Shown here: positions 5,122 through 16,077 of the stretch, piece by piece
Layout of the letters: the number at the start of each line of letters is the position of its first letter
How positions within the stretch are numbered: the stretch's first letter is position 1
Origin: Ectothiorhodospiraceae bacterium
GTDB lineage: Bacteria > Pseudomonadota > Gammaproteobacteria > XJ16 > Halofilaceae
Direction: 5' to 3'
Assembly (NCBI GenBank): GCA_007134775.1
Contig: SLKC01000051.1
Coordinates: forward strand, 1-58,814
DNA length: 58,814 nt
The notes under the pieces: model-generated
Seen by the model: only the letters and a program-made list of their open reading frames with translations
Told to the model about the DNA's origin: nothing
The model's database searches: none
Translations under genes and position numbers: made by a program

Positions 5122-5871
5122 ATGAAGATACTGGTTCCCGTGAAAAGGGTGGTCGATGCCTACGTCAAGGTCCGCGTCAGGAGCGACGGTTCGGGCGTCG
5201 AGACCAACAACATCAAGATGTCGATGAACCCGTTCGACGAGATCGCGGTCGAGGAAGCAGTGCGCCTGAAGGAGGCCGGGACGGCCAGCGAGGTCATCGC
5301 CGTGACTATCGGCGGGTCGCAGGCCCAGGAGCAGCTGCGCACGGCACTGGCGATGGGCGCGGATCGGGCGATGCTGGTGGAAGCCGATGAAGGGCTACAA
5401 CCGCTCGCGGTCGCCAAGACCCTCAATGCCGTGTGCGACCAGGAATCGCCGGACATGGTGATCATGGGCAAGCAGGCGATCGATGACGATGCCAACCAGA
5501 CCGGGCAGATGCTTGCAGCACTGCGGGGTTGGGCGCAGGGAACCTTCATCTCGGCGCTCGAAGTCGGTGAGGGCGAGGCCACGATCACGCGCGAGATCGA
5601 TGGCGGGCTGGAGAAGCTGAAGCTTCCCCTGCCGGCGATCGTGACGGTCGATCTGCGCCTCAACGAGCCGCGTTATCCGAAGCTGCCGAATATCATGAAG
5701 GCCAAGAAGAAGCCGATCGAGCAGACCACGACCGCGGACCTCGGGGTCGAGACGAGCACGGGCCTGACGCAGGTCCGGGTCGAGGAGCCGCCCGCACGCA
5801 AGGGCGGTGTCAAGGTCGATAGCGTCGCCGAACTGGTCGACAAGCTGAAGAATGAGGCAAAGGTGATCTGA
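5122..5871 (+). CDS. etfB: Electron transfer flavoprotein beta subunit
   Basis: A 249-residue protein with the canonical EtfB start [19 protein letters not shown], the [16 protein letters not shown] segment, and AMP/FAD-binding segments GADRAMLV and MGKQAIDDD. The end [10 protein letters not shown] is the usual EtfB recognition-loop region that contacts partner dehydrogenases. A strong ribosome site (AAGGTGAG) lies just before ATG 5122. The stop overlaps the etfA start (5871), so the two are translationally coupled. It is 136 bp after the DMGDH-like gene on the same strand, suggesting it serves that enzyme, though ETF can also serve acyl-CoA dehydrogenases. No ETF-ubiquinone oxidoreductase is in the window. 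Confidence 0.97.
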
Positions 5872-6809
5872 TGGCTATTCTCGTCTATGCGGAACACGAT
5901 GGCAGTGCCCTGACTTCAGGTGCACTTTCGGCGCTCGCTTGTGCCCAGCAGATCGGTGGCGAGATCGATGTGCTGGTGACGGGCAGTGGCGTCGACGAAG
6001 CCGCTGCGGCGGCTGCAAAGGTCGCCGGTGTGCGCAAGGTGCTCGTCGCGGATGCGTCGCACCTCGAGCATCATCTGGCGGAGAATGTCGCCCCGGTCAT
6101 CGAGGCGGTGGCGGCTGACTACGAGTATATCCTCGCTGCGGCGACGACGAGCGGCAAGAACATTATACCGCGCGTGGCGGCAAGGCTTGATGTCCAGCAA
6201 ATCTCTGACATCAGCGGCGTCGAAGCGCCGGATACGTTTGTACGCCCGATCTACGCGGGCAACGCGCTCGCGACGGTTCGCTCGGAGGACCCGAAGAAGG
6301 TCATCACGGTGCGCACGACCTCGTTCGATCCGGTTGCAGCGGAAGGGGGCGAGGCCACCGTCGAGTCCGTCGATCCGGGCGCGGATGCCGGCCTGACGCA
6401 GTTCGTTGGGGCTGAGGTCAGCAGCTCCGAGGGCCCGGAACTGACCACGGCTCGCATTGTCGTGTCGGGCGGGCGCGGTCTCGGCTCGGCGGAGAACTTC
6501 AAGCTCATCGAGGAACTTGCCGAGGAACTGGGTGCCGCGGTCGGTGCCAGCCGCGCCGCCGTCGATGCCGGCTATGTGCCCAACGACTACCAGGTGGGCC
6601 AGACGGGCAAGGTCGTAGCGCCCGATCTCTACATCGCCATCGGGATTTCAGGGGCGATTCAGCACATGGCCGGTATGAAGGAGTCGAAGGTGATCGTTGC
6701 CATCAACAAGGATCCGGAGGCACCGATCTTTGAGGCGGCCGACTATGGACTGGTGGCCGATCTGTTCGAAGCAACCCCGGAACTGAAGAAGGCATTGACC
6801 GCGGCCTGA
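5871..6809 (+). CDS. etfA: Electron transfer flavoprotein alpha subunit
   Basis: A 312-residue EtfA of usual bacterial length. The C-terminal FAD domain carries the family signatures [45 protein letters not shown] and [10 protein letters not shown]. With EtfB it forms the soluble heterodimer that collects electrons from flavin dehydrogenases and hands them to the membrane ETF:ubiquinone oxidoreductase. Its ATG overlaps the etfB stop. A perfect GC hairpin 16 bp after its stop probably ends the transcript that starts with the DMGDH-like gene. Confidence 0.97.
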
Positions 6810-6825
6810 CGCCGTTCCCATGATA

Positions 6826-6849
6826 CCCCGAGCCAGGGAAGGCTCGGGG
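6826..6849 (+). terminator. GC-rich hairpin after etfA, probable terminator
   Basis: CCCCGAGCC and GGCTCGGGG form a perfect 9-bp stem around a 6-nt loop (AGGGAA), 16 bp after the etfA stop. No U-tract follows, so termination strength is uncertain. Confidence 0.6.
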
Positions 6850-6913
6850 GGGATGTGACTGAGCGGGGGGCGTGCCACGCTGTGCGGTCCGGACACTCGG
6901 CGAGGTTGGTGCC

Positions 6914-7135
6914 ATGAATACCTCACCGGCAATCGTTCTCGTGGTCATCGGGCTTGTGCTCGTCGCGCTCGGGCTGGTTGCCCTCACAGGGGCTCTCGAC
7001 TGGTTCGGCCGCCTGCCCGGCGACATCCGCATGGAGGGCGACAACAGCCGGGTCTTCATCCCGATCACCTCGATGGTGGTCGTCTCCCTCGTGCTCAGCA
7101 TTCTCGTCAATCTCCTGTGGCGGTTTTTCCAGTGA
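6914..7135 (+). CDS. DUF2905 family small membrane protein
   Basis: A 73-residue protein started at ATG 6914 (MNTSPAIVLV). Two hydrophobic segments at about residues 5-26 and 50-69 flank a short loop with the family signature FGRLPGDIRMEGDNSRVF. DUF2905 proteins are small inner-membrane proteins without an assigned function. It stands alone between the etfA hairpin and the fnr-type gene on the same strand. Identification rests on the RLPGDIR loop and the two-helix layout. Confidence 0.85.
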   Translation: MNTSPAIVLVVIGLVLVALGLVALTGALDWFGRLPGDIRMEGDNSRVFIPITSMVVVSLVLSILVNLLWRFFQ

Positions 7136-7308
7136 CTCCCTGTCAGCGTGTGGGGCCGAGGCGGGCGCCACGGCCTGCTTGGGGGCGGTAGCGACGAGCC
7201 ATCGTATCGGTGATATTGTGGGTATCGCCTCCGGGCGCGGCGCGACCGTCCCTGGTTTGCGTGGCCGCCGCTCAGGAGGGGGCGTGATGCCGCGGCGGGG
7301 GGAGATCG

Positions 7309-8106
7309 ATGGATGGAGATGGGGAGCGACTGGACGACGAGTCGGTCATTGATCTCGGCCGCCTGAGCCGTTCCTGTCAGGATTGCTCGCTGCGCGGCCT
7401 CTGCCTCCCCGATGGCCTCGAGGCGGCAGACATCGAAATGCTCGAACGCGTTGTCCACCAGCGCCTGCCGTTGGATCGCGGTGAGGAGCTCTTCCGCGCG
7501 GAGGAAGAGTTCGTCAACCTCTACGTCGTGCGCAGTGGCACGATACGGACGACACAGCCGACAGCCCCCGGCGACGAGCAGGTGATCGGGTTCCACCTGC
7601 CTGGGGAGTTGCTCGGCCTCGATGCCATCAGTACCGGGCGCCATCAGTGCAACGCGCTCGCACTCGACCGCACGAGCGTCTGTGCCATCCCCTTCAACCA
7701 GCTCGAACAGGTCGCCGTACGGGTGCCGGCGCTGCAGCAGCAGCTGTTGCGCATCATTTCGCGGGAGATGGTCGAGGATCACAATCATCTGGCCGCCCTG
7801 GGGCGGCGTTCGGCGCACGAGCGACTGGCGCTGTTTCTCTACAGCCTCTCTGAGCGCCTGGAACGGAGTGGACATGGTGGGGATCAGTTCAGTCTCAGCA
7901 TGTCGCGCGCCGACATCGCCAGCTACCTCGGCCTCGCCCTGGAGACGGTCAGCCGCCTCATGACCCGATTGGCGGACGAGGGCGTGATCGCCATCGACCG
8001 CCGCCGTCTGCGCATCGTCGACCACGGTCTGCTGGCGGAGGCGGCGGGCAATCCATCGCGGAGAGATTGCGCCCCGCTGCGCTCGGGGCGGACGGGGTCG
8101 TACTGA
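7309..8106 (+). CDS. fnr: Fnr/Anr-type oxygen-responsive transcriptional regulator
   Basis: A 265-residue Crp/Fnr regulator. The N-terminus has the CxxCx5C cluster (Cys23, Cys26, Cys32); a cysteine matching Fnr Cys122 is Cys125 in SVCAIPF, so all four [4Fe-4S] ligands are present. An extra Cys114 is nearby. A cyclic-nucleotide-like beta barrel spans about residues 45-140, then a dimer helix, and a winged helix with recognition segment ETVSR at 212-216, matching the E-SR residues that read TTGAT half-sites. It should activate microaerobic or anaerobic genes when oxygen is low. The start ATG 7309 is preceded by a purine-rich GGGGGGAG. No convincing TTGAT-N4-ATCAA site was seen nearby. Confidence 0.92.
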   Translation: MDGDGERLDDESVIDLGRLSRSCQDCSLRGLCLPDGLEAADIEMLERVVHQRLPLDRGEELFRAEEEFVNLYVVRSGTIRTTQPTAPGDEQVIGFHLPGELLGLDAISTGRHQCNALALDRTSVCAIPFNQLEQVAVRVPALQQQLLRIISREMVEDHNHLAALGRRSAHERLALFLYSLSERLERSGHGGDQFSLSMSRADIASYLGLALETVSRLMTRLADEGVIAIDRRRLRIVDHGLLAEAAGNPSRRDCAPLRSGRTGSY

Positions 8107-8164
8107 GGCCGGTGTGCTACCCACGGCAGCTGTAGCAGATTGAGTCAATAGTGGGAGGGCGTTC

Positions 8165-8542
8165 ATGCTGCTGCTCGAACGCATCGCCGAGGAGAGGATC
8201 AGTGACGCGCGTGATCGCGGGGATCTCGCCGGCCTGCCCGGCGAGGGCCGACCCCTGCCGGCCGAGGACCTCGAGCTCGTGCCGCGCGAGCTGCGACCCG
8301 CCTACCGGTTGCTCAAGAATGCTGGTTACTTGCCCGAGGATGTGGCGCTGCGCCGCGATATCGCCGATGCGGAGGCGCTGCTCCACGCCGCGCGCGACAG
8401 CGAAGAGCGCGCAGAAGCGAGTGCGCGGTTACGACTGCTGCTCAACCGTCTGGGCAGTCAGCGCGCCGTATCGCTGGCGACGCAAGAGCGTTACTACCAA
8501 CGCATCCTTGCGCGGGTGGAGGCCGCCGGCGACGAGCGGTGA
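8165..8542 (+). CDS. DUF1992 (DnaJ-homologue C28 domain) family protein
   Basis: A 125-residue helical protein. The N-terminus shows the DUF1992 signature: ERIAEERISDARDRGDLAGL followed by GEGRPLP, then PRELRPAYRLLKNAGYLP. This family includes E. coli YhdN and the C-terminal region of DNAJC28. Its molecular role is not established. The gene follows fnr by 58 bp on the same strand and may be co-transcribed with it. Confidence 0.88.
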   Translation: MLLLERIAEERISDARDRGDLAGLPGEGRPLPAEDLELVPRELRPAYRLLKNAGYLPEDVALRRDIADAEALLHAARDSEERAEASARLRLLLNRLGSQRAVSLATQERYYQRILARVEAAGDER

Positions 8543-8616
8543 CCGCTGCTGAGAAGCGCGCGAGGATGATGGTAGACTAGATACATGCGTGAATACGTGA
8601 ATAGACGCTGGATCGC

Positions 8617-8982
8617 ATGCCTACACTGTTGATGAATCTGCGCAGTGTGCCCGATGACGAGGCCGAAGAGGTGCGCGAGCTGCTGCGCAAGCACCATATC
8701 GACTTCTATGAGACGCCGCCCAGCCGCTGGTTCATCTCGATGGGCGGCATCTGGCTCCCCGACGGCGCACCCGTTGATGCGGCCCGGCGGGCGCTGGCCG
8801 AGTACCAGTGTGAGCGCCGTGAACGCATGCGTGCCGAATACGAGCGGCGCAAGCAGGCAGGGGAGGTCGACACGTTCGCGACCGTGCTGCGCCGCGAACC
8901 CGCGCGGGTGATTCTCTATACGGCGGTCTGTGCCGGCCTGCTCTACCTGATGACCGTTCCCTTCCTCCACATCGCCGGCTGA
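8617..8982 (+). CDS. DUF6164 family protein
   Basis: A 121-residue protein with the family start MPTLLMNLRSVPDDEAEEV and FYETPPSRWFIS. The first part resembles the small ferredoxin-like domain that DUF6164 shares with other putative signal-transducing proteins. A basic helical stretch (about 65-90) follows, then one hydrophobic segment at about 100-117 near the C-terminus that should anchor it in the membrane. Function unknown. The gene sits alone on the plus strand and converges with the acyl-AMP ligase fusion, 20 bp apart stop to stop. Confidence 0.75.
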   Translation: MPTLLMNLRSVPDDEAEEVRELLRKHHIDFYETPPSRWFISMGGIWLPDGAPVDAARRALAEYQCERRERMRAEYERRKQAGEVDTFATVLRREPARVILYTAVCAGLLYLMTVPFLHIAG

Positions 8983-9002: not shown

Positions 9003-11858
9003 CTAGACCGGCGACCCCGTTTCGGGATCGCCCAGCACGCCTGTGCGGGTGCTCTCCAGATCGGTCTCCCCGCAGTGCTCGAGGATGAAGGCGCGTGCGC
9101 GGTCCCGCAGGCGCAGCGCGGCGTCCCAGTCATCGCCATCGGGTGCGATCGGATCGCCGATGTGCACCGCAATGCGTCCGGGCCGCGGTGACCAGGAGTT
9201 GCCTTTGAGGATCGCGCGGGGGCCGCGCAGGGAGACCGGGACGACAGGTAGCCCCGTGCGCACGGCGAGCATGAAGGCGCCGATGCGGAATGGGCGCAGG
9301 CCTTCGGCTGCCGTGAATGTCCCCTCGGGGAAGAAGAGCACGCGATCGCCGGCGCGGGCCCGTGCCTGCGCGCGCTCGAGGTCCTGCAGCGCGCGCCGAC
9401 TGTCGCCGCGCTCAACGTATTCGCCGCCCAGGCGGCTGACCAGCACATGGGTGAACGGATGTTCGCCCAGCTCGCGTTTCGCGATGAAGGCGAGCGGGCC
9501 GGGCAGTACGGCCCGGAGGGCGGGGGCATCCAGGTAGCTGGTGTGGTTGGCAACCACCACGCAGGGCGTGTCGTCGGGCAGATTCTCGCGCCCGTATACG
9601 CGCAGCGGGATGCCGCCGAGGGTGAAGACGGCTCGACTGATCCCGCGCGCCAGCGCGGCGCGTGCGCGACTTCCGGGCAGCGCCACCAGCAGCGGTAGGC
9701 CGGGGATGACGAAAACGGCACCAACCAGCCAGCACCAGGCAGTGAACAGGCCATCGCGCGTGCGCCGCAGACCTCGGCCCAGGGCGGGGCCGATCCCGCT
9801 CAAGGCGAGCCGCGCGACCTGCAGGACCATGAGCCCCGGCCGGCTCGATGCCACTCCCTGTTCGTAGATGGCGCGCGCGTCGGGCCGCCGGATCTTGCCG
9901 CTCGAGGTCTTCGGCACGGTCTGCGGCGGGACGAGCACGACATCGTCGGGCGGGACCTCGAGCAGCTCCAGCGCGGTTGCGTTGATCCGGTCACGGAGCT
10001 GCTCGCGGATATCGCCGGCGGTCTCACGTGTCTCCGCCATCACGATCAGCCGTTCGACGGCGGTCTCGGGGTCGGGGCTGGCGAACACGGCCACACAATT
10101 CTTGCGCACTCCCTCGATCTGGCCGACGGCCTGTTCGAGGTCGTAGGGGTAGATGTTGCGGCCCGCACGGATGATGAGGTCCTTGGCACGGCCGCACGGG
10201 TAGATCGCGCCGTCGACCCTGTAGGCGTAGTCCCCGGAATTGAGCCAGTCGCCGTCGTAGAGTTCGTGCGTGGCCTCCGCGTTGCGGTAGTAGCCGCTGG
10301 TGCAGGAGGGCCCGCGGAATTGCAGCCGGCCCTGGTGGCGTTCCGGTAGCTCGCGGCTGACCTCGTCGACGATCCGGATCTCGTGGCCGGGCAGGGGCCG
10401 GCCGCAGTCGACGAATTCGAGCACGTCGTCCTCTTCGGCGCCCGCAGGGATGGCCCGCCCCTCGTCGTGGAAGGGGCCACGCTGTACCCGGTCGATCTGC
10501 GGGCGTTCGCCGACCTTGGAGAAGGCGAGGCCGACCGAGGATTCGGCGAGCCCGTAGACGGGGGACATCGCTTCGGCGCGGAAGCCGTAGGGCGCGAAGC
10601 GCTCCTCGAAATGGCGCAGCGTGCGCGGGATCACCGGCTCCGCGCCGTTGAAGGCGAGCCGCCACGAGGAGAGATCGAGGCCGCGGACCTGCTCGTCGTC
10701 GATGCGCCCGGCACACAGATCGTAGGCGAAGTTGGGACCGGCGGAGATTGTGCCGCCGTGGCGATGAATCGCCCACAGCCAGCGCTGGGGCCGGGCGATG
10801 AACTGCAGCGGCGACATCAGCACCAGGTGGAGGCCGTAGTAGAGGGTGCCGAGGCAGGCGCCGATCAGCCCCATGTCGTGGTAGAGCGGCAGCCACGAGA
10901 CGAAGACGTCGGAGGCCGGGTCCGGCTTTACGGACGCCTCCATGGCCCGAATGTTGGCGAGCAGATTCGCGTGTGTGAGTACCACGCCCTTCGGGTTGCC
11001 GGTGGTCCCCGAGGTGTACTGTAGGAATGCGATGTCGTCGCCGCGCCGAGGGACGGCGACCGGGCCGGGCGGTTCGGCGCGAATCTCCTCGACGCTCAAG
11101 ACCCCGCGCAGCCGGGGCAGCAGCCCGTGGAGCAGTCGCCCCACAGAGCGGGTCTCCTGTGAGGTAAGCAGGAAGGTAGTGGCTGCATTGTCGAGCACGC
11201 CCGCCTGGCGGCGGCAGTGCGATTCGATCTGGTCGGCGCGCAGCGGCGGATAGATCGGTACCGGGATGCCGCCGGCACGCAGGATGCCGTGGAAGGCAAA
11301 GAAGAAATCGAAGCCGCTGGGCAGCATGATGGCGACCGTCTCGCCCGGGGCGAGACCGCGCTCGCGCAAGCCCGCGGCGACTTCGCGCGCACCGGCCTGT
11401 AGCTCGGCATAGGTCAGTGTCGCCCCGCCGCCGCCGTCCTCATGCATCGTGACGCAGACGTGGTCGGGGCGTCGGGCCACATGCCAGTCGAGCACCTCGA
11501 TCAGCGTGGTTGCACGGTGCGGCGGGCCGGCATCGGAGCCGGTGGTGCGGTCATCGCGGGTCTGGGGTCGTTCTGCCTCCCCGTCGTCGAGTTCTACCGC
11601 ATGACCCAGAGCGCTCAGCAGATCGCGCGGTGTCCGTGCCTCGATCGCGGTTTCGTCGCTCACGCGGACCCCGAAATCGCGCTCGAGGCGCAGCATGAGC
11701 TCGATCCGGGCCAGACTGTCGAGGCCGAGGTCGCGCTCGAGATGGCTGTCCAGCGTGGGGGCCGGGATATCGCGACCGCGGTGGAGCTCGCGCGCGACCT
11801 CGTGGACCAAAACGAGAAACCGGTCCGGTGCGTGCCGCGCTTCATCGGGCTGATTCAT
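9003..11858 (-). CDS. Three-domain fusion: acyl carrier protein, fatty acyl-AMP ligase, 1-acylglycerol-phosphate-type acyltransferase
   Basis: One 951-residue polypeptide. Residues about 10-90 form an acyl carrier domain whose GLDSL motif puts the phosphopantetheine serine at Ser48. Residues about 118-670 form a fatty acyl-AMP ligase with YTSGTTGNPKG (281-291), SWLPLYHDMGLIG and the catalytic lysine Lys655 in KTSSGK. A hydrophobic segment at about 706-730 is followed by a PlsC-type acyltransferase with NHTSYLD (H771-D777 region) and FPEGTF (843-848). The architecture implies that an activated fatty acid is loaded on the in-cis ACP and moved to an acceptor at the membrane, possibly a lysophospholipid or other lipid (inference). 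AGGAG lies a few bases before the ATG. No frameshift was seen. It is transcribed alone, opposite its neighbours. Confidence 0.92.
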   Translation of the reverse strand: MNQPDEARHAPDRFLVLVHEVARELHRGRDIPAPTLDSHLERDLGLDSLARIELMLRLERDFGVRVSDETAIEARTPRDLLSALGHAVELDDGEAERPQTRDDRTTGSDAGPPHRATTLIEVLDWHVARRPDHVCVTMHEDGGGGATLTYAELQAGAREVAAGLRERGLAPGETVAIMLPSGFDFFFAFHGILRAGGIPVPIYPPLRADQIESHCRRQAGVLDNAATTFLLTSQETRSVGRLLHGLLPRLRGVLSVEEIRAEPPGPVAVPRRGDDIAFLQYTSGTTGNPKGVVLTHANLLANIRAMEASVKPDPASDVFVSWLPLYHDMGLIGACLGTLYYGLHLVLMSPLQFIARPQRWLWAIHRHGGTISAGPNFAYDLCAGRIDDEQVRGLDLSSWRLAFNGAEPVIPRTLRHFEERFAPYGFRAEAMSPVYGLAESSVGLAFSKVGERPQIDRVQRGPFHDEGRAIPAGAEEDDVLEFVDCGRPLPGHEIRIVDEVSRELPERHQGRLQFRGPSCTSGYYRNAEATHELYDGDWLNSGDYAYRVDGAIYPCGRAKDLIIRAGRNIYPYDLEQAVGQIEGVRKNCVAVFASPDPETAVERLIVMAETRETAGDIREQLRDRINATALELLEVPPDDVVLVPPQTVPKTSSGKIRRPDARAIYEQGVASSRPGLMVLQVARLALSGIGPALGRGLRRTRDGLFTAWCWLVGAVFVIPGLPLLVALPGSRARAALARGISRAVFTLGGIPLRVYGRENLPDDTPCVVVANHTSYLDAPALRAVLPGPLAFIAKRELGEHPFTHVLVSRLGGEYVERGDSRRALQDLERAQARARAGDRVLFFPEGTFTAAEGLRPFRIGAFMLAVRTGLPVVPVSLRGPRAILKGNSWSPRPGRIAVHIGDPIAPDGDDWDAALRLRDRARAFILEHCGETDLESTRTGVLGDPETGSPV

Positions 11859-12392
11859 GCCATGTCTCCTTTGCTTCTGTGCCCGCTGTCAGCGAGGTCG
11901 CCTTCGTGCAACATGGTGGCGTCTGCTCTGCCTGTAAACCAGTACACCGCACCCCACCCCACGTGCACATTGCTTGCAGGGATCATCGCCCATTCGCCAG
12001 CGCAGCGATGCGAGAGCTGATCCTGGGGCGGCGTGCGCCCGCACCGACGATGGCCTCACCGAGCGGGGTTGGCATCGGCTTGAGCAGGCGGTCGGCGACG
12101 GCATCCGTATCGTCGACATTCCCCCCGAGCCACCGCATGCGGCGCTCGTCTTCCACGCCCGCCGGCATGACAAGGGTCCGCCAGGTCCCTGACGGGGGAT
12201 CGTTGGTCGGACACGGCGGTTGCGGAGCGCGTTGGACGTGTGCATCCGTGGTCCGGGGCGGTATCATGCGCAGCGACACGGGCGGTCGCGATGCGGTACC
12301 GGGCAGCGCCGGAGACTGCCGGGCAAGGTCGCTCGATTCGGCTCATTCACAGACAGCCCGCTGGTCTAGAGGACCGCGGGGCGGTCTCTCGG
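11859..12392. other. 534-bp divergent non-coding region between the acyl-AMP ligase fusion and the CobD-like gene
   Basis: No gene could be supported. Short open frames on both strands lack recognisable domains. A plus-frame stretch at 12040-12090 reads TDDGLTERGWHRLEQAV, resembling part of an alpha-ribazole phosphatase, without the RHG motif before it or a matching continuation. GC-rich hairpins sit at about 12299-12322 and 12370-12389, the second just before the CobD-like start. The region should contain both promoters, but no clear -35/-10 pair stands out. Confidence 0.6.
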
Positions 12393-13406
12393 GTGGTGGC
12401 TTTGCTGACACACGGTGACAACGTCAGCGAGATGATGCAGCGCCTCGGTCTGGCCGATGCCGACTGGCTCGACCTCTCCACCGGTGTCAATCCGCATGCC
12501 TGGGCGGCCCCGACCCCGCCGTTGGAGGTGTGGCAGCGATTGCCCGATGGCCGTGATGGCCTCGAACGCGAGGCGAGTGCCTACTTTGGTACTGAGTCGG
12601 TACTGGCCGTGCCGGGCAGCCAGGCCGCGTTGTCGCTGCTCCCTTATCTGCGCTCGCCGTCGCGCGTGGGCGTGATCGCGCCTGGCTATGGCGAGCACAG
12701 TGCGGCCTGGCAGCGCGCCGGTCACGAGGTCGTGCCATTGTCGTCGGCCCAGCTCGCCGGGGGGGCGGGAACCGCCTTTGATGTCCTCGTGCTGATCAAC
12801 CCGAACAATCCCGATGGCACACTGTTCGAGCCGCAGACGCTGTTGGACTGGCGCACGGGCCTTGCCAGTCGAGGGGGCTGGCTCGTCGTCGACGAGGCCT
12901 TCATCGATGCCATGCCGGCGTACAGCGTCGCCCGTCACCTCCCGCTGCCCGGGCTCATCGTGCTGCGCTCGATCGGCAAGTTCTTCGGCCTCGCCGGGAT
13001 GCGCATCGGCTTTGCGCTGGGCGAGGTAGCGCTGCTGCAGCGCCTCGAGGAGATGCTTGGGCCCTGGGCGGTGAATGGGCCCGCGCGCTGGGTTGCCCGG
13101 CAGGCGCTCGCCGATCGCGGCTGGCAGGAGCGTATGCGGGCTCGCCTGGTGCAGGAGAGCGAGCGGTTAGGGGCGCTGCTGGCCCGTTACTTCCCGCAGC
13201 GCATCGTCGGCACGCCACTGTTTCGTACCGTTCTCACCGCGGACGCGCCGGTCATCCACGAGCGCCTGGCCCGCGAGGCGGCCCTCGTGCGGTTGCTCGA
13301 TCGCCAGGATGGCCTGCGCTTCGGCCTGCCACCGGACGAGGCCGCGTGGCAGCGCCTTGAGCGGACCCTGGATCGGGTGGTCGAACCGGCTATTAGTCGG
13401 CCATGA
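12393..13406 (+). CDS. cobD: CobD-like L-threonine-phosphate decarboxylase (PLP aminotransferase fold)
   Basis: A 337-residue class I/II aminotransferase-fold protein close to CobD/CobC of cobalamin synthesis. Signatures include LDLSTGVNPHAW near the start, LINPNNPDG, the PLP aspartate in VVDEAFID and the Schiff-base lysine in RSIGKFFGLAGMRIG. CobD makes (R)-1-amino-2-propanol phosphate for the corrinoid nucleotide loop. There is no ATG at the expected place: homologues begin a few residues before the HGD motif, which fits GTG 12393 (GTG 12396 or TTG 12402 are alternatives), all with weak ribosome sites. Its stop overlaps the btuF start. No other cob genes are in the window, and histidinol-phosphate aminotransferase is a less likely alternative. 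Confidence 0.82.
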   Translation: MVALLTHGDNVSEMMQRLGLADADWLDLSTGVNPHAWAAPTPPLEVWQRLPDGRDGLEREASAYFGTESVLAVPGSQAALSLLPYLRSPSRVGVIAPGYGEHSAAWQRAGHEVVPLSSAQLAGGAGTAFDVLVLINPNNPDGTLFEPQTLLDWRTGLASRGGWLVVDEAFIDAMPAYSVARHLPLPGLIVLRSIGKFFGLAGMRIGFALGEVALLQRLEEMLGPWAVNGPARWVARQALADRGWQERMRARLVQESERLGALLARYFPQRIVGTPLFRTVLTADAPVIHERLAREAALVRLLDRQDGLRFGLPPDEAAWQRLERTLDRVVEPAISRP

Positions 13407-14290
13407 AGCGCTGGCTGCTGGTGCTGCTGTGGTTGCCGCTGCCGCTCGTTGCCACGGCGGATGCGGTACGCGTCGTCGACGACGCGGACCGAGAGGTAGT
13501 GCTTGAGCGACCGGCCGAGCGCATCGTGAGTCTCGCCCCGAATATCACCGAGAACCTGTTCTCTGCGGGCGCAGGGAAGCGCATTGTTGCCACCGTCGAG
13601 TACAGCGACTATCCCGAGGAGGCGAAGGAGATCCCGCGTATCGGTCGCTATGACCGGCTCGACCTGGAGGGGATCATCGCCGCCGAACCCGACCTGGTGG
13701 TCGGCTGGATCAGCGGGAATCTGCGGGAACCCATCGAACGGCTGCACGAGCTTGGCGTGCCTGTCTACCTGATTGAACCGCGACGGCCCGGTGATGTTGC
13801 ACACACGGTCAGGCAGCTGGGGCGGCTGGCAGGCACAAGCGCGGTCGCCGAGGCGGTGGCAACGGATTTCCTCGCACGCTTCGAGACACTGCGGGGGCTG
13901 CACGCCGAGCGTGCGCCCGTCGGCGTCTTCTATCAGATCTGGGATGATCCACTGATGACGATCAATGATGCGCACCTGATCAGCGCGCTAATCCGTGGCT
14001 GCGGTGGTCGCAACGCCTTCGGGGAACTCGAATCGCTAGCGCCACGTATCGATCGCGAGGCTGTGCTTGCACGCGATCCGGAGGTTATCGTCGCGAGCAG
14101 TGTCGGTGGCGAACGTCCCGAGTGGCTCGACGACTGGCGTGATTGGCCCGAGCTGCGAGCGGTGGCCCGGGAGAATCTGTACTTTGTTCCGTCCGACAAG
14201 GTCCAGCGCCATACCGTGCGCACCCTTGAGGGCATGGAACGTCTCTGTGGGCAGCTCGAGGAGGCGCGGGAGCGGCGCCGCGCGCAGTGA
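13403..14290 (+). CDS. btuF: Cobalamin-binding periplasmic protein (BtuF-like)
   Basis: A 295-residue substrate-binding protein with a signal peptide (about 1-20, MKRWLLVLLWLPLPLVATADA). The fold is of the helical-backbone class used for cobalamin and siderophores: RIVSLAPNITENLFSAGAG near the N-terminus, then RIGRYDRLDLEGIIAAEPDLV, and YQIWDDPLMTIN, close to the BtuF pattern. It would deliver vitamin B12 to BtuCD in the inner membrane. It overlaps the CobD-like gene by 4 bp and ends 39 bp from the end of btuD, which runs toward it. Cobalamin is preferred over heme or siderophore because of the CobD-like partner. Confidence 0.85.
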   Translation: MKRWLLVLLWLPLPLVATADAVRVVDDADREVVLERPAERIVSLAPNITENLFSAGAGKRIVATVEYSDYPEEAKEIPRIGRYDRLDLEGIIAAEPDLVVGWISGNLREPIERLHELGVPVYLIEPRRPGDVAHTVRQLGRLAGTSAVAEAVATDFLARFETLRGLHAERAPVGVFYQIWDDPLMTINDAHLISALIRGCGGRNAFGELESLAPRIDREAVLARDPEVIVASSVGGERPEWLDDWRDWPELRAVARENLYFVPSDKVQRHTVRTLEGMERLCGQLEEARERRRAQ

Positions 14291-14329
14291 ACGAACGACG
14301 GCCGCCGCCCTGGTGGTGATGGCTGCGGG

Positions 14330-15097
14330 TCAGGCCGGCAAGAATGCCCGCTGGCCATTGCCGACGACCTCCTCGATCGGGTGGTGGTAGAGGCAGGTCA
14401 GATAGTCGGCGCGCAGTAGCTGATCCGCCGGGCCGTGCAGGATCTCGCCGTCGGCGAAGATCATGAGGGCGTGATCGCAGAAGCGCGCAGCCAGGTTGAC
14501 GTCATGCAGCGCCATAACGAGCGCCCCGCCGCGCGCCCGGGCGTGGTCGTGCAGCTTGCCGAGCAGTCGTATCTGGTGGTGGAGGTCGAGATGGTTCGTC
14601 GGTTCATCGAGCAGGGCGACCTTCGGGTCCTGCACGAGTAGGGCAGCGAGCGCCAAGCGGCGCCGCTCGCCGCCGGAGAGGGTGTCGACGCCGCGCTGCT
14701 CAAAGCCGTCGAGCTCGACCTCGGCGAGTGCGTCGCGGGCCCGGCGGGTGTCCTCGGGCCCCTCCCACTGCCAGGGCCCGAGGTGCGGATGCCGGCCGAT
14801 CAGCGCGGTCTCCAGGACGGTCGCCGGAAAGGGATCATCGCTGTCCTGGAGCAGGATACCGAGCCGGCGCGCTATGGCCCGGCGGCTCCATGACCTCAGT
14901 GGGTGGCCCTCCAACAGGATCGTGCCGGCCGCCGGCGAGCGTAGTCCGGCCAGTGTGTACAGCAGTGTTGTCTTGCCGGCCCCGTTCGCCCCGAGTACCG
15001 CCCAGGACTCGCCCGGTGTGACGGTGAGTTCGAGATCGCCGCCGATGCGCTTGCCGCCGATGTCGACGCGGAGTCCATGGGCCGCCAGCAGGCTCAT
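14330..15097 (-). CDS. btuD: ABC transporter ATP-binding protein, cobalamin/iron-chelate type (BtuD-like)
   Basis: A 255-residue ATPase of the FecE/BtuD class. Walker A is GANGAGKTTLL, the signature is LSGGERRRLAL, Walker B is VALLDEPTNHLD, and the H-loop lies in MALHDVNLA. It energises the permease encoded just upstream, with which it overlaps by 4 bp (15094-15097). It faces cobD-btuF, so the transporter is split over two convergent transcripts. Assignment to cobalamin comes from the neighbouring btuF and CobD-like gene. Confidence 0.87.
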   Translation of the reverse strand: MSLLAAHGLRVDIGGKRIGGDLELTVTPGESWAVLGANGAGKTTLLYTLAGLRSPAAGTILLEGHPLRSWSRRAIARRLGILLQDSDDPFPATVLETALIGRHPHLGPWQWEGPEDTRRARDALAEVELDGFEQRGVDTLSGGERRRLALAALLVQDPKVALLDEPTNHLDLHHQIRLLGKLHDHARARGGALVMALHDVNLAARFCDHALMIFADGEILHGPADQLLRADYLTCLYHHPIEEVVGNGQRAFLPA

Positions 15098-16077
15098 CGC
15101 TGGTGTCTCCGTGGCCCGCGGTGGAGCAGCACCAGGAAGATCGGCACGCCGATCAGCGCCGTGATCACGCCGACCGGCAGTTGCTGCGGGGCGATGATGA
15201 CGCGTGCGAGGGCGTCAGCAGCCGTCAGTAGACTGCCGCCGAGCAGCACCGCGGCGGGCACGAGGAGACGGTGATCGGCGCCCGCGATCAGGCGAATCAT
15301 GTGGGGTATCACCAGTCCCACGAAACCGATGGTGCCGCCGACGGTAACGGCGGCCGCGGTGAGCAGCGACGCCGCGAAATAGATGGCCAGGCGCAGGGGG
15401 CCGACCGCCACACCGAGCGCCTGTGCCTGCAGATCGCCGCGCGCGAGCAGGTTGAGGGGGCGGGCCAGGGCAAAGGCGAAGAGCAGCCCGACGACCAGAG
15501 CCAGCCAGGTCCAGCCCGGCCCGCGGGTGTGCGCCAGGTCGCCCATGAGCCAGAAGAGCATGCCGCGCAGCTCGCGCTCGGGGCTGACCGCGAGTAGAAA
15601 GCTGATGACCGCGCCCCAGCCCGCGGCAACGACCACGCCGGTGAGCAGGAGCCGCGTTGGTGTCCAGCCGCCGCGACCGTGGGCGATGGCGAAGACCAGC
15701 AGCATGGAGCCGATCGCGCCCACAAACGCGTTGAGCGACAGCCAGAAGCCGGCGAGACCGGCCAGCATCGACAGCAGCGCACCGACGGCGGCGCCACCGG
15801 AGACGCCGAGGACGTAGGGGTCGGCCAGCGGGTTGCGCAGCAGCACCTGCATCAGGGCGCCGGCGAGGCCCAGCAGACCACCGACGACGAAAGCTGCCAG
15901 GGCCCGTGGCAGGCGGATTTCGAGGATGATGCGGCGGTGCGTCCCCTCCCCCTGGCCGATCAGGGCCTCCCAGATCGTAGTGGGGGAAACGGGGGCGGAC
16001 CCGGCCCCGAGCGCCAGCACGAGGCAGGCCAACGCGAGCAGCGCGAGCACCGGGAGCAGGAGGGTCGCACGGGCCAT
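15094..16077 (-). CDS. btuC: ABC transporter permease, FecCD/BtuC family
   Basis: A 327-residue polytopic protein with about nine to ten membrane segments. The family signature GGLLGLAGALMQVLLRNPLA followed by PYVLGVSGGAAVGALLSM is present, as is the C-terminal GFVGLVIPHMIRLIAGADHR that forms the ATPase-coupling helix. It is the channel for vitamin B12 or a related chelate. It starts 11 bp after the ispA stop and has no space for its own promoter, so it is transcribed with xseB-ispA. In many relatives dxs follows ispA at this position. Confidence 0.87.
   Translation of the reverse strand: MARATLLLPVLALLALACLVLALGAGSAPVSPTTIWEALIGQGEGTHRRIILEIRLPRALAAFVVGGLLGLAGALMQVLLRNPLADPYVLGVSGGAAVGALLSMLAGLAGFWLSLNAFVGAIGSMLLVFAIAHGRGGWTPTRLLLTGVVVAAGWGAVISFLLAVSPERELRGMLFWLMGDLAHTRGPGWTWLALVVGLLFAFALARPLNLLARGDLQAQALGVAVGPLRLAIYFAASLLTAAAVTVGGTIGFVGLVIPHMIRLIAGADHRLLVPAAVLLGGSLLTAADALARVIIAPQQLPVGVITALIGVPIFLVLLHRGPRRHQR

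Follow-up and report, generated by a model that had tools for sequence, protein, structure and literature searches.

The window analysed here, a 58,814-nt stretch of DNA from an Ectothiorhodospiraceae bacterium, carries on its minus strand (positions 9003–11858) a real open reading frame for a 951-residue protein in which an acyl carrier protein (ACP) domain, a genuine FAAL-type acyl-AMP ligase, a hydrophobic hairpin and a PlsC-type acyltransferase are fused. We somewhat favor the view that this ACP-FAAL-PlsC protein is a membrane-associated, self-loading acyltransferase whose acceptor would be a lysophospholipid or another lysolipid.

Domain anatomy and conserved residues

The gene starts with an ATG at position 11858 and its stop codon ends at 9003; a Shine-Dalgarno sequence (AAAGGAG on the complementary strand, 11866–11872) lies 7 nt 5' of the ATG. 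Its full-length homologs are 41–54% identical and nearly all free of internal stops, which shows that the reading frame is not a chance one. Three Pfam domains scored above their cut-offs, in the order PP-binding (residues 20–83, E value 4.7e-11), AMP-binding (residues 124–524, 1.1e-73) and Acyltransferase (residues 752–877, 2.6e-29). A first-pass annotation made from the sequence had named these three activities in a single protein without giving a strand, and the domain searches bear it out.

The residues it had singled out are all present and conserved as well. In the ACP domain (PF00550; 11610–11801, minus strand) the predicted phosphopantetheine site is Ser48 of a DSL motif (GLDSL; codon 11715–11717), which was retained in all 86 rows of a 91-member alignment in which that column is filled. 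Lys655 of the ligase (codon 9894–9896) lies in PKTSSGK, and the acyltransferase motifs NHTSYLD and FPEGTF occupy residues 771–777 and 843–848; Lys655, His772, Asp777 and Glu845-Gly846 were found in 91/91 homologs. Judged from this alignment, the catalytic residues, together with the published FAAL markers of CoA rejection, are invariant or nearly so in the 91 members.

The ligase occupies about residues 116–669 (9852–11513, minus strand), and its best relatives in the PDB are all FAALs: EcFAAL (3pbk, about 1e-88), an olefin synthase FAAL, a Legionella FAAL, FadD32 and FadD23. An AlphaFold model built from 42 homologs (mean pLDDT of 85) superimposed on EcFAAL with a TM score of 0.92 on the target. 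According to Patil et al. 2021 (PMC8460268), EcFAAL excludes CoA by means of W224, P226, M231 and F279, together with a short helix specific to FAALs. The four residues align with W322, P324, M329 and F377, each present in 91/91 homologs, and the helix corresponds to about residues 350–357, of which the two positions counted (353 and 357) were conserved in 91/91. A 45-residue segment with the FAAL-specific insertion (residues 440–484; 10407–10541, minus strand) aligned to EcFAAL without gaps and is missing from E. coli FadD, E. coli Aas and a second fusion protein of the same genome. The domain thus combines an ANL fold, catalytic lysine and ATP-binding motifs with the FAAL insertion and a blocked CoA pocket, and these sequence features mark it as a true FAAL, a ligase class whose members load ACP rather than CoA. 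The best 25 NCBIfam models listed for the whole protein all scored under their cut-offs, so no curated NCBIfam name applies.

Between ligase and acyltransferase lies a helical hairpin (residues 677–747; 9618–9830, minus strand) with a hydrophobic stretch at about residues 703–727 (Kyte-Doolittle maximum of 2.33). AlphaFold places helices at residues 689–726 and 730–747, and by hydropathy 96% of the homologs have a hydrophobic stretch N-terminal to the acyltransferase. The hairpin presumably resembles the two-helix membrane motif at the N-terminus of PlsC. The membrane anchor proposed in the first-pass annotation may thus be monotopic and PlsC-like rather than transmembrane.

The acyltransferase part (ACYLTRANSFERASE; residues 752–877, 9228–9605 on the minus strand) is a PF01553 domain (102.1 bits against a cut-off of 23) with the NHX4D and FPEG motifs, and its sole sequence relative of solved structure at an E value of 0.01 is PlsC (5kym, 4.3e-26). 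The AGPAT model TIGR00530 was its best NCBIfam model and was narrowly missed (96.6 versus 102.95 bits). At position 848, where E. coli PlsC has the arginine of FPEGTR and Aas reads FPEGRI, the 91 members have F (75), L (13), I (1) or R (2). In PlsC this arginine is regarded as the contact for the acceptor's phosphate group, and its replacement would make LPA a less likely acceptor here.

Distribution and genomic neighborhoods

A collection scan recovered at least 586 confirmed relatives, some of which may carry only part of the architecture; the best 80 of these are 44–53% identical over most of the query, except where a contig end truncates the copy. The sequences of named origin used for the tree come from Pseudomonadota, Thermodesulfobacteriota, Actinomycetota, Acidobacteriota, Nitrospirota, Planctomycetota and Candidatus Tectimicrobiota. 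The one-protein acylation machine of the first-pass annotation is real in its architecture, but it is not singular, being one member of a widespread family without a name. The gene was found in 6/398 genomes of an even Pseudomonadota sample (about 1.5%, counting the genome of the window) and in 2/200 up to 6/199 genomes of other samples. Within the window's genus it is present in two of three genomes, with 54% identity between the copies, and none of the window's other genes was found adjoining the second copy. Phyla are interspersed on the family tree (13 changes), a mixing to which misbinning of MAGs can contribute, but Mycobacterium innocens and Rhodococcus aetherivorans, both isolates, are among the relatives too. 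Halospina and Marinobacter salicampi are other cultured carriers. The picture is of an accessory gene that is mobile or often lost.

No universal or conserved operon surrounds the gene, and most loci have no shared neighbor. However, in 9 of 106 loci it directly adjoins a gene for an Atg22-like MFS protein (PF11700), which lies downstream on the same strand (L044, L100, L134), upstream on the same strand (L079, L081, L056), divergent (L071, L089) or convergent (L073). L079 is from Pseudomaricurvus alkylphenolicus. The L056 copy (6637–7950), from a Polaromonas MAG, is a remnant with an internal deletion that sits immediately upstream of the enzyme gene. PF11700 occurs in 108/299 genomes, and this base rate would give about 0.02 adjacencies (assuming about 3500 genes per genome) against the nine observed. 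In the roughly 1.2 Mb of flanking DNA there was no other strong Atg22-like match, and one weak match lay at 4.9 kb. The nine rows represent nine changes at separate places on the tree, eight of them forced by supported branches, so the link does not stem from a single recent inherited event. The MFS HMM was trained on six of these neighbors and its scores are therefore not independent of them; PF11700 membership was confirmed separately for several. Genome-wide co-occurrence with PF11700 was weak, at 13/22 genomes (all of which except G001 carry the enzyme gene) versus 108–122/299.

The window's own genome has a PF11700 gene of a lower-scoring subfamily, unlinked to the enzyme gene. It lies on another contig (C156), about 1.3 kb from a gene for a PlsB-like acyltransferase of 510 residues, which is under the normal PlsB length; the pair occupies L153:2856–4385 (minus strand) and 5683–7071 (plus strand). 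The same genome has six other PF01553 genes, and some of their products could take the role of PlsC. Its second three-domain fusion has 890 residues (contig C129; L119:2750–5422, plus strand). That protein has the order AMP-binding (CoA-ligase type, without the FAAL insertion), PP-binding (595–645) and Acyltransferase (706–833); its gene diverges from that of an FtsH protein and adjoins an ORF that by eye resembles a metallo-beta-lactamase-fold RNase.

Other contexts recurred at lower numbers. FtsH genes adjoin or lie near the enzyme gene at L065, L072, L109 and L118, a PDH set lies near it at L107, L108, L111, L112 and L114, and a FadD-like ligase gene does so at L056, L081, L114, L116 and L117. 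Four copies (L113, L114, L116, L118) are on plasmids of Methylobacterium, Cupriavidus, Paraburkholderia and Sinorhizobium, surrounded by genes for universal stress proteins (Usp), Hsp20, FtsH, DUF302, PDH, acsA and nicotinate phosphoribosyltransferase. The FtsH, PDH, FadD-like and stress contexts suggest stress induction in some lineages and are too rare to define function. Some of the plasmid surroundings are similar to the low-oxygen-activated (lxa) island of Burkholderia; we rejected membership in that island because the lxa papers searched name no such gene and stress neighbors are rare over all loci. In two loci from two phyla (L053:10783–12547 and L113:9216–10715) the enzyme gene is followed by a lipid-related pair, a metallophosphoesterase gene (57% identical between the two) and a CDP-archaeol synthase-like gene.

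Within the window, the genes downstream of the enzyme gene on the opposite strand (7309–8982, plus strand) encode a Crp/FNR-type regulator, a DnaJC28-domain protein and a DUF6164 protein, with no sign of a functional tie to the enzyme. Control by FNR, raised by the regulator gene (7309–8106), was also rejected: FNR-like boxes with at most one mismatch occurred at about the chance rate upstream of 83 loci (5 seen, 2.2 expected), and a Crp/FNR regulator was close by only in the window and in one other lineage (L033 and L121, an identical gene). The region at 12240–16077 encodes an aminotransferase-family protein (Pfam), then what appear by eye to be the binding protein, ATPase and permease of a B12-type ABC uptake system.

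Proposed acylation line and its acceptor

The order of domains probably describes a three-step line: acyl-AMP formation, loading of Ser48 and transfer onto some lipid. The FAAL domain, judged by its family and conserved residues, would convert free fatty acid and ATP to acyl-AMP. The acyl group would then pass, within one chain or between chains, to the phosphopantetheine arm on the protein's own Ser48 and not to CoA, since the CoA-rejection features are intact and the carrier is fused. Finally, the membrane-held PlsC-type domain would take the acyl group off the ACP and attach it to a hydroxyl group on a membrane lipid, most likely a lysophospholipid or another one-chain lipid. Because a FAAL loads ACP and not CoA, loading of the ACP in cis followed by hand-off to the PlsC-type domain is the natural reading, and acyl transfer in cis appears well supported by the anatomy. 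The FAAL type and the conserved active sites uphold in part the earlier proposal of an in-cis carrier machine using free fatty acids, to which the MFS neighbor adds a lysolipid context.

It is very unlikely that the protein instead supplies acyl-ACP to another pathway in trans, with the PlsC domain secondary. FAALs do typically feed PKS/NRPS lines and FAAL-ACP didomains exist (PMC11837247), but no PKS/NRPS neighbor recurs at these loci and the acyltransferase keeps its catalytic residues in 91/91 members.

For the acceptor, the recurrent Atg22-like neighbor points, by analogy, to uptake and re-acylation of lysolipids as in LplT-Aas. E. coli LplT is an MFS flippase that delivers lysophospholipid to Aas, the acyl-ACP synthetase/2-acyl-GPE acyltransferase; lplT and aas are neighbors in E. 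coli, and the LplT and Aas proteins associate in a complex (PMC11416262). This parallel, an argument from context, is what chiefly speaks for a lysolipid acceptor, and a lysophospholipid could well be the physiological one, although we name it tentatively. With such an acceptor, the reaction would amount to fatty-acid salvage and lysolipid re-acylation, as by Aas but with the enzyme's own ACP, and in part of the family the MFS protein would act as LplT does. Against this, the adjacent MFS gene is Atg22-like, not LplT, is present in under 10% of loci and is not found at the window's locus. Our searches gave no useful paper linking Atg22 to lysophospholipid. Relatives of Atg22 are known as amino-acid effluxers, so a lysolipid would be a putative cargo for these MFS proteins. 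We also considered that the enzyme family simply replaces LplT. LplT was not detected in the window's genome at an E value of 1e-10, but a strong LplT match occurs together with the enzyme gene in 3/20 genomes searched, so the gene is not a simple LplT replacement.

Two other acceptors would fit some of the same observations. A lyso-aminolipid related to ornithine or glycine lipids, or some other specialized lipid of the membrane, would make the enzyme a source of a stress-induced minor lipid; the patchy distribution suits an accessory lipid, stress genes (Usp, Hsp20, FtsH, DUF302, PDH) surround some copies, the lost FPEGTR arginine would argue against an acceptor with a free phosphate, and models of OlsA-type lyso-ornithine lipid acyltransferases matched, at 65.8 bits, far below their cut-off of 300. 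We nevertheless think this fairly unlikely, as no N-acyltransferase (OlsB-like) gene was noticed adjoining the enzyme gene and the closest solved relative is PlsC. That same relative, the AGPAT model as best NCBIfam match and the metallophosphoesterase and CDP-archaeol synthase-like genes at L053 and L113 would suit a self-loading 1-acyl-G3P acyltransferase making phosphatidic acid de novo from exogenous fatty acids. This is distinctly improbable given that TIGR00530 was missed, that nearly all members have FPEGTF in place of FPEGTR, and that other PF01553 genes in the window's genome could act as PlsC.

Relation to known systems and significance

Fusion of a ligase to an LPLAT domain is a kind already known from Aas; what is new here is the fused ACP, the FAAL-type ligase, the reversed order and the Atg22-like partner. 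Like the present protein, E. coli Aas joins a PlsC-type acyltransferase to an acyl-AMP-forming acyl-ACP synthetase, and Aas acts on a membrane lipid, as the present protein would. In Aas, however, the acyltransferase comes first (HX4D at residue 36) and AMP-binding follows, with neither an ACP nor the FAAL insertion, as the first-pass annotation had stated for order and carrier. With order reversed and an ACP added, the protein falls below the cut-offs of the Aas equivalogs PRK08633 (158.6 versus 1221) and PRK06814 (133.2 versus 1349), and its acyltransferase part below that of PRK08043 (21.3 versus 886). PlsC (1-acyl-G3P acyltransferase, 5kym) and OlsA share the overall domain and the HX4D and FPEG motifs, but they are stand-alone enzymes, and the present protein has lost the arginine of FPEGTR. 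The AlmEFG system of Vibrio cholerae is likewise a line of ligase, carrier and membrane acyltransferase, but it consists of three separate proteins that carry glycine to lipid A.

Stand-alone FAALs and FAAL-ACP didomains (EcFAAL, FadD32, the olefin synthase FAAL, HapA, NocH) share the ligase fold and the CoA-rejection features, and the didomains also hold their ACP in cis. They feed PKS/NRPS lines without a PlsC domain, and the described order is FAAL-ACP, whereas here the ACP is N-terminal. The literature searched, with most subscription papers and preprints outside it, contained no named characterization, and the domain databases gave no curated family name. PlsC goes unmentioned in a 2025 review of FAALs. 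One clause in the consulted part of Patil et al. 2021 (PMC8460268) notes that FAALs occur fused to lysophospholipid acyltransferases, apparently in this architecture or one close to it, and gives them there no name, function or neighbors.

Since a single chain unites the activating, carrier and membrane acyltransferase parts, the protein would offer a minimal and easily assayed case of in-cis acyl channeling to membrane lipids, and would show a FAAL at work beyond the synthesis of polyketides and peptides. According to a review, a part for FAAL or FACL enzymes in making aminolipids is yet to be established (PMC11631085), and the protein is a direct candidate for such a role. The transporter link, if true, would give bacterial Atg22-like MFS proteins a testable cargo. 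It is conceivable, if somewhat doubtful, that CoA-independent ACP-FAAL-PlsC enzymes and Atg22-like MFS flippases form a third, unrecognized type of bacterial lysolipid salvage, spread over seven phyla, and that lysolipids would be the first substrate class for these transporters. The family as a whole probably repairs or remodels membrane lipids.
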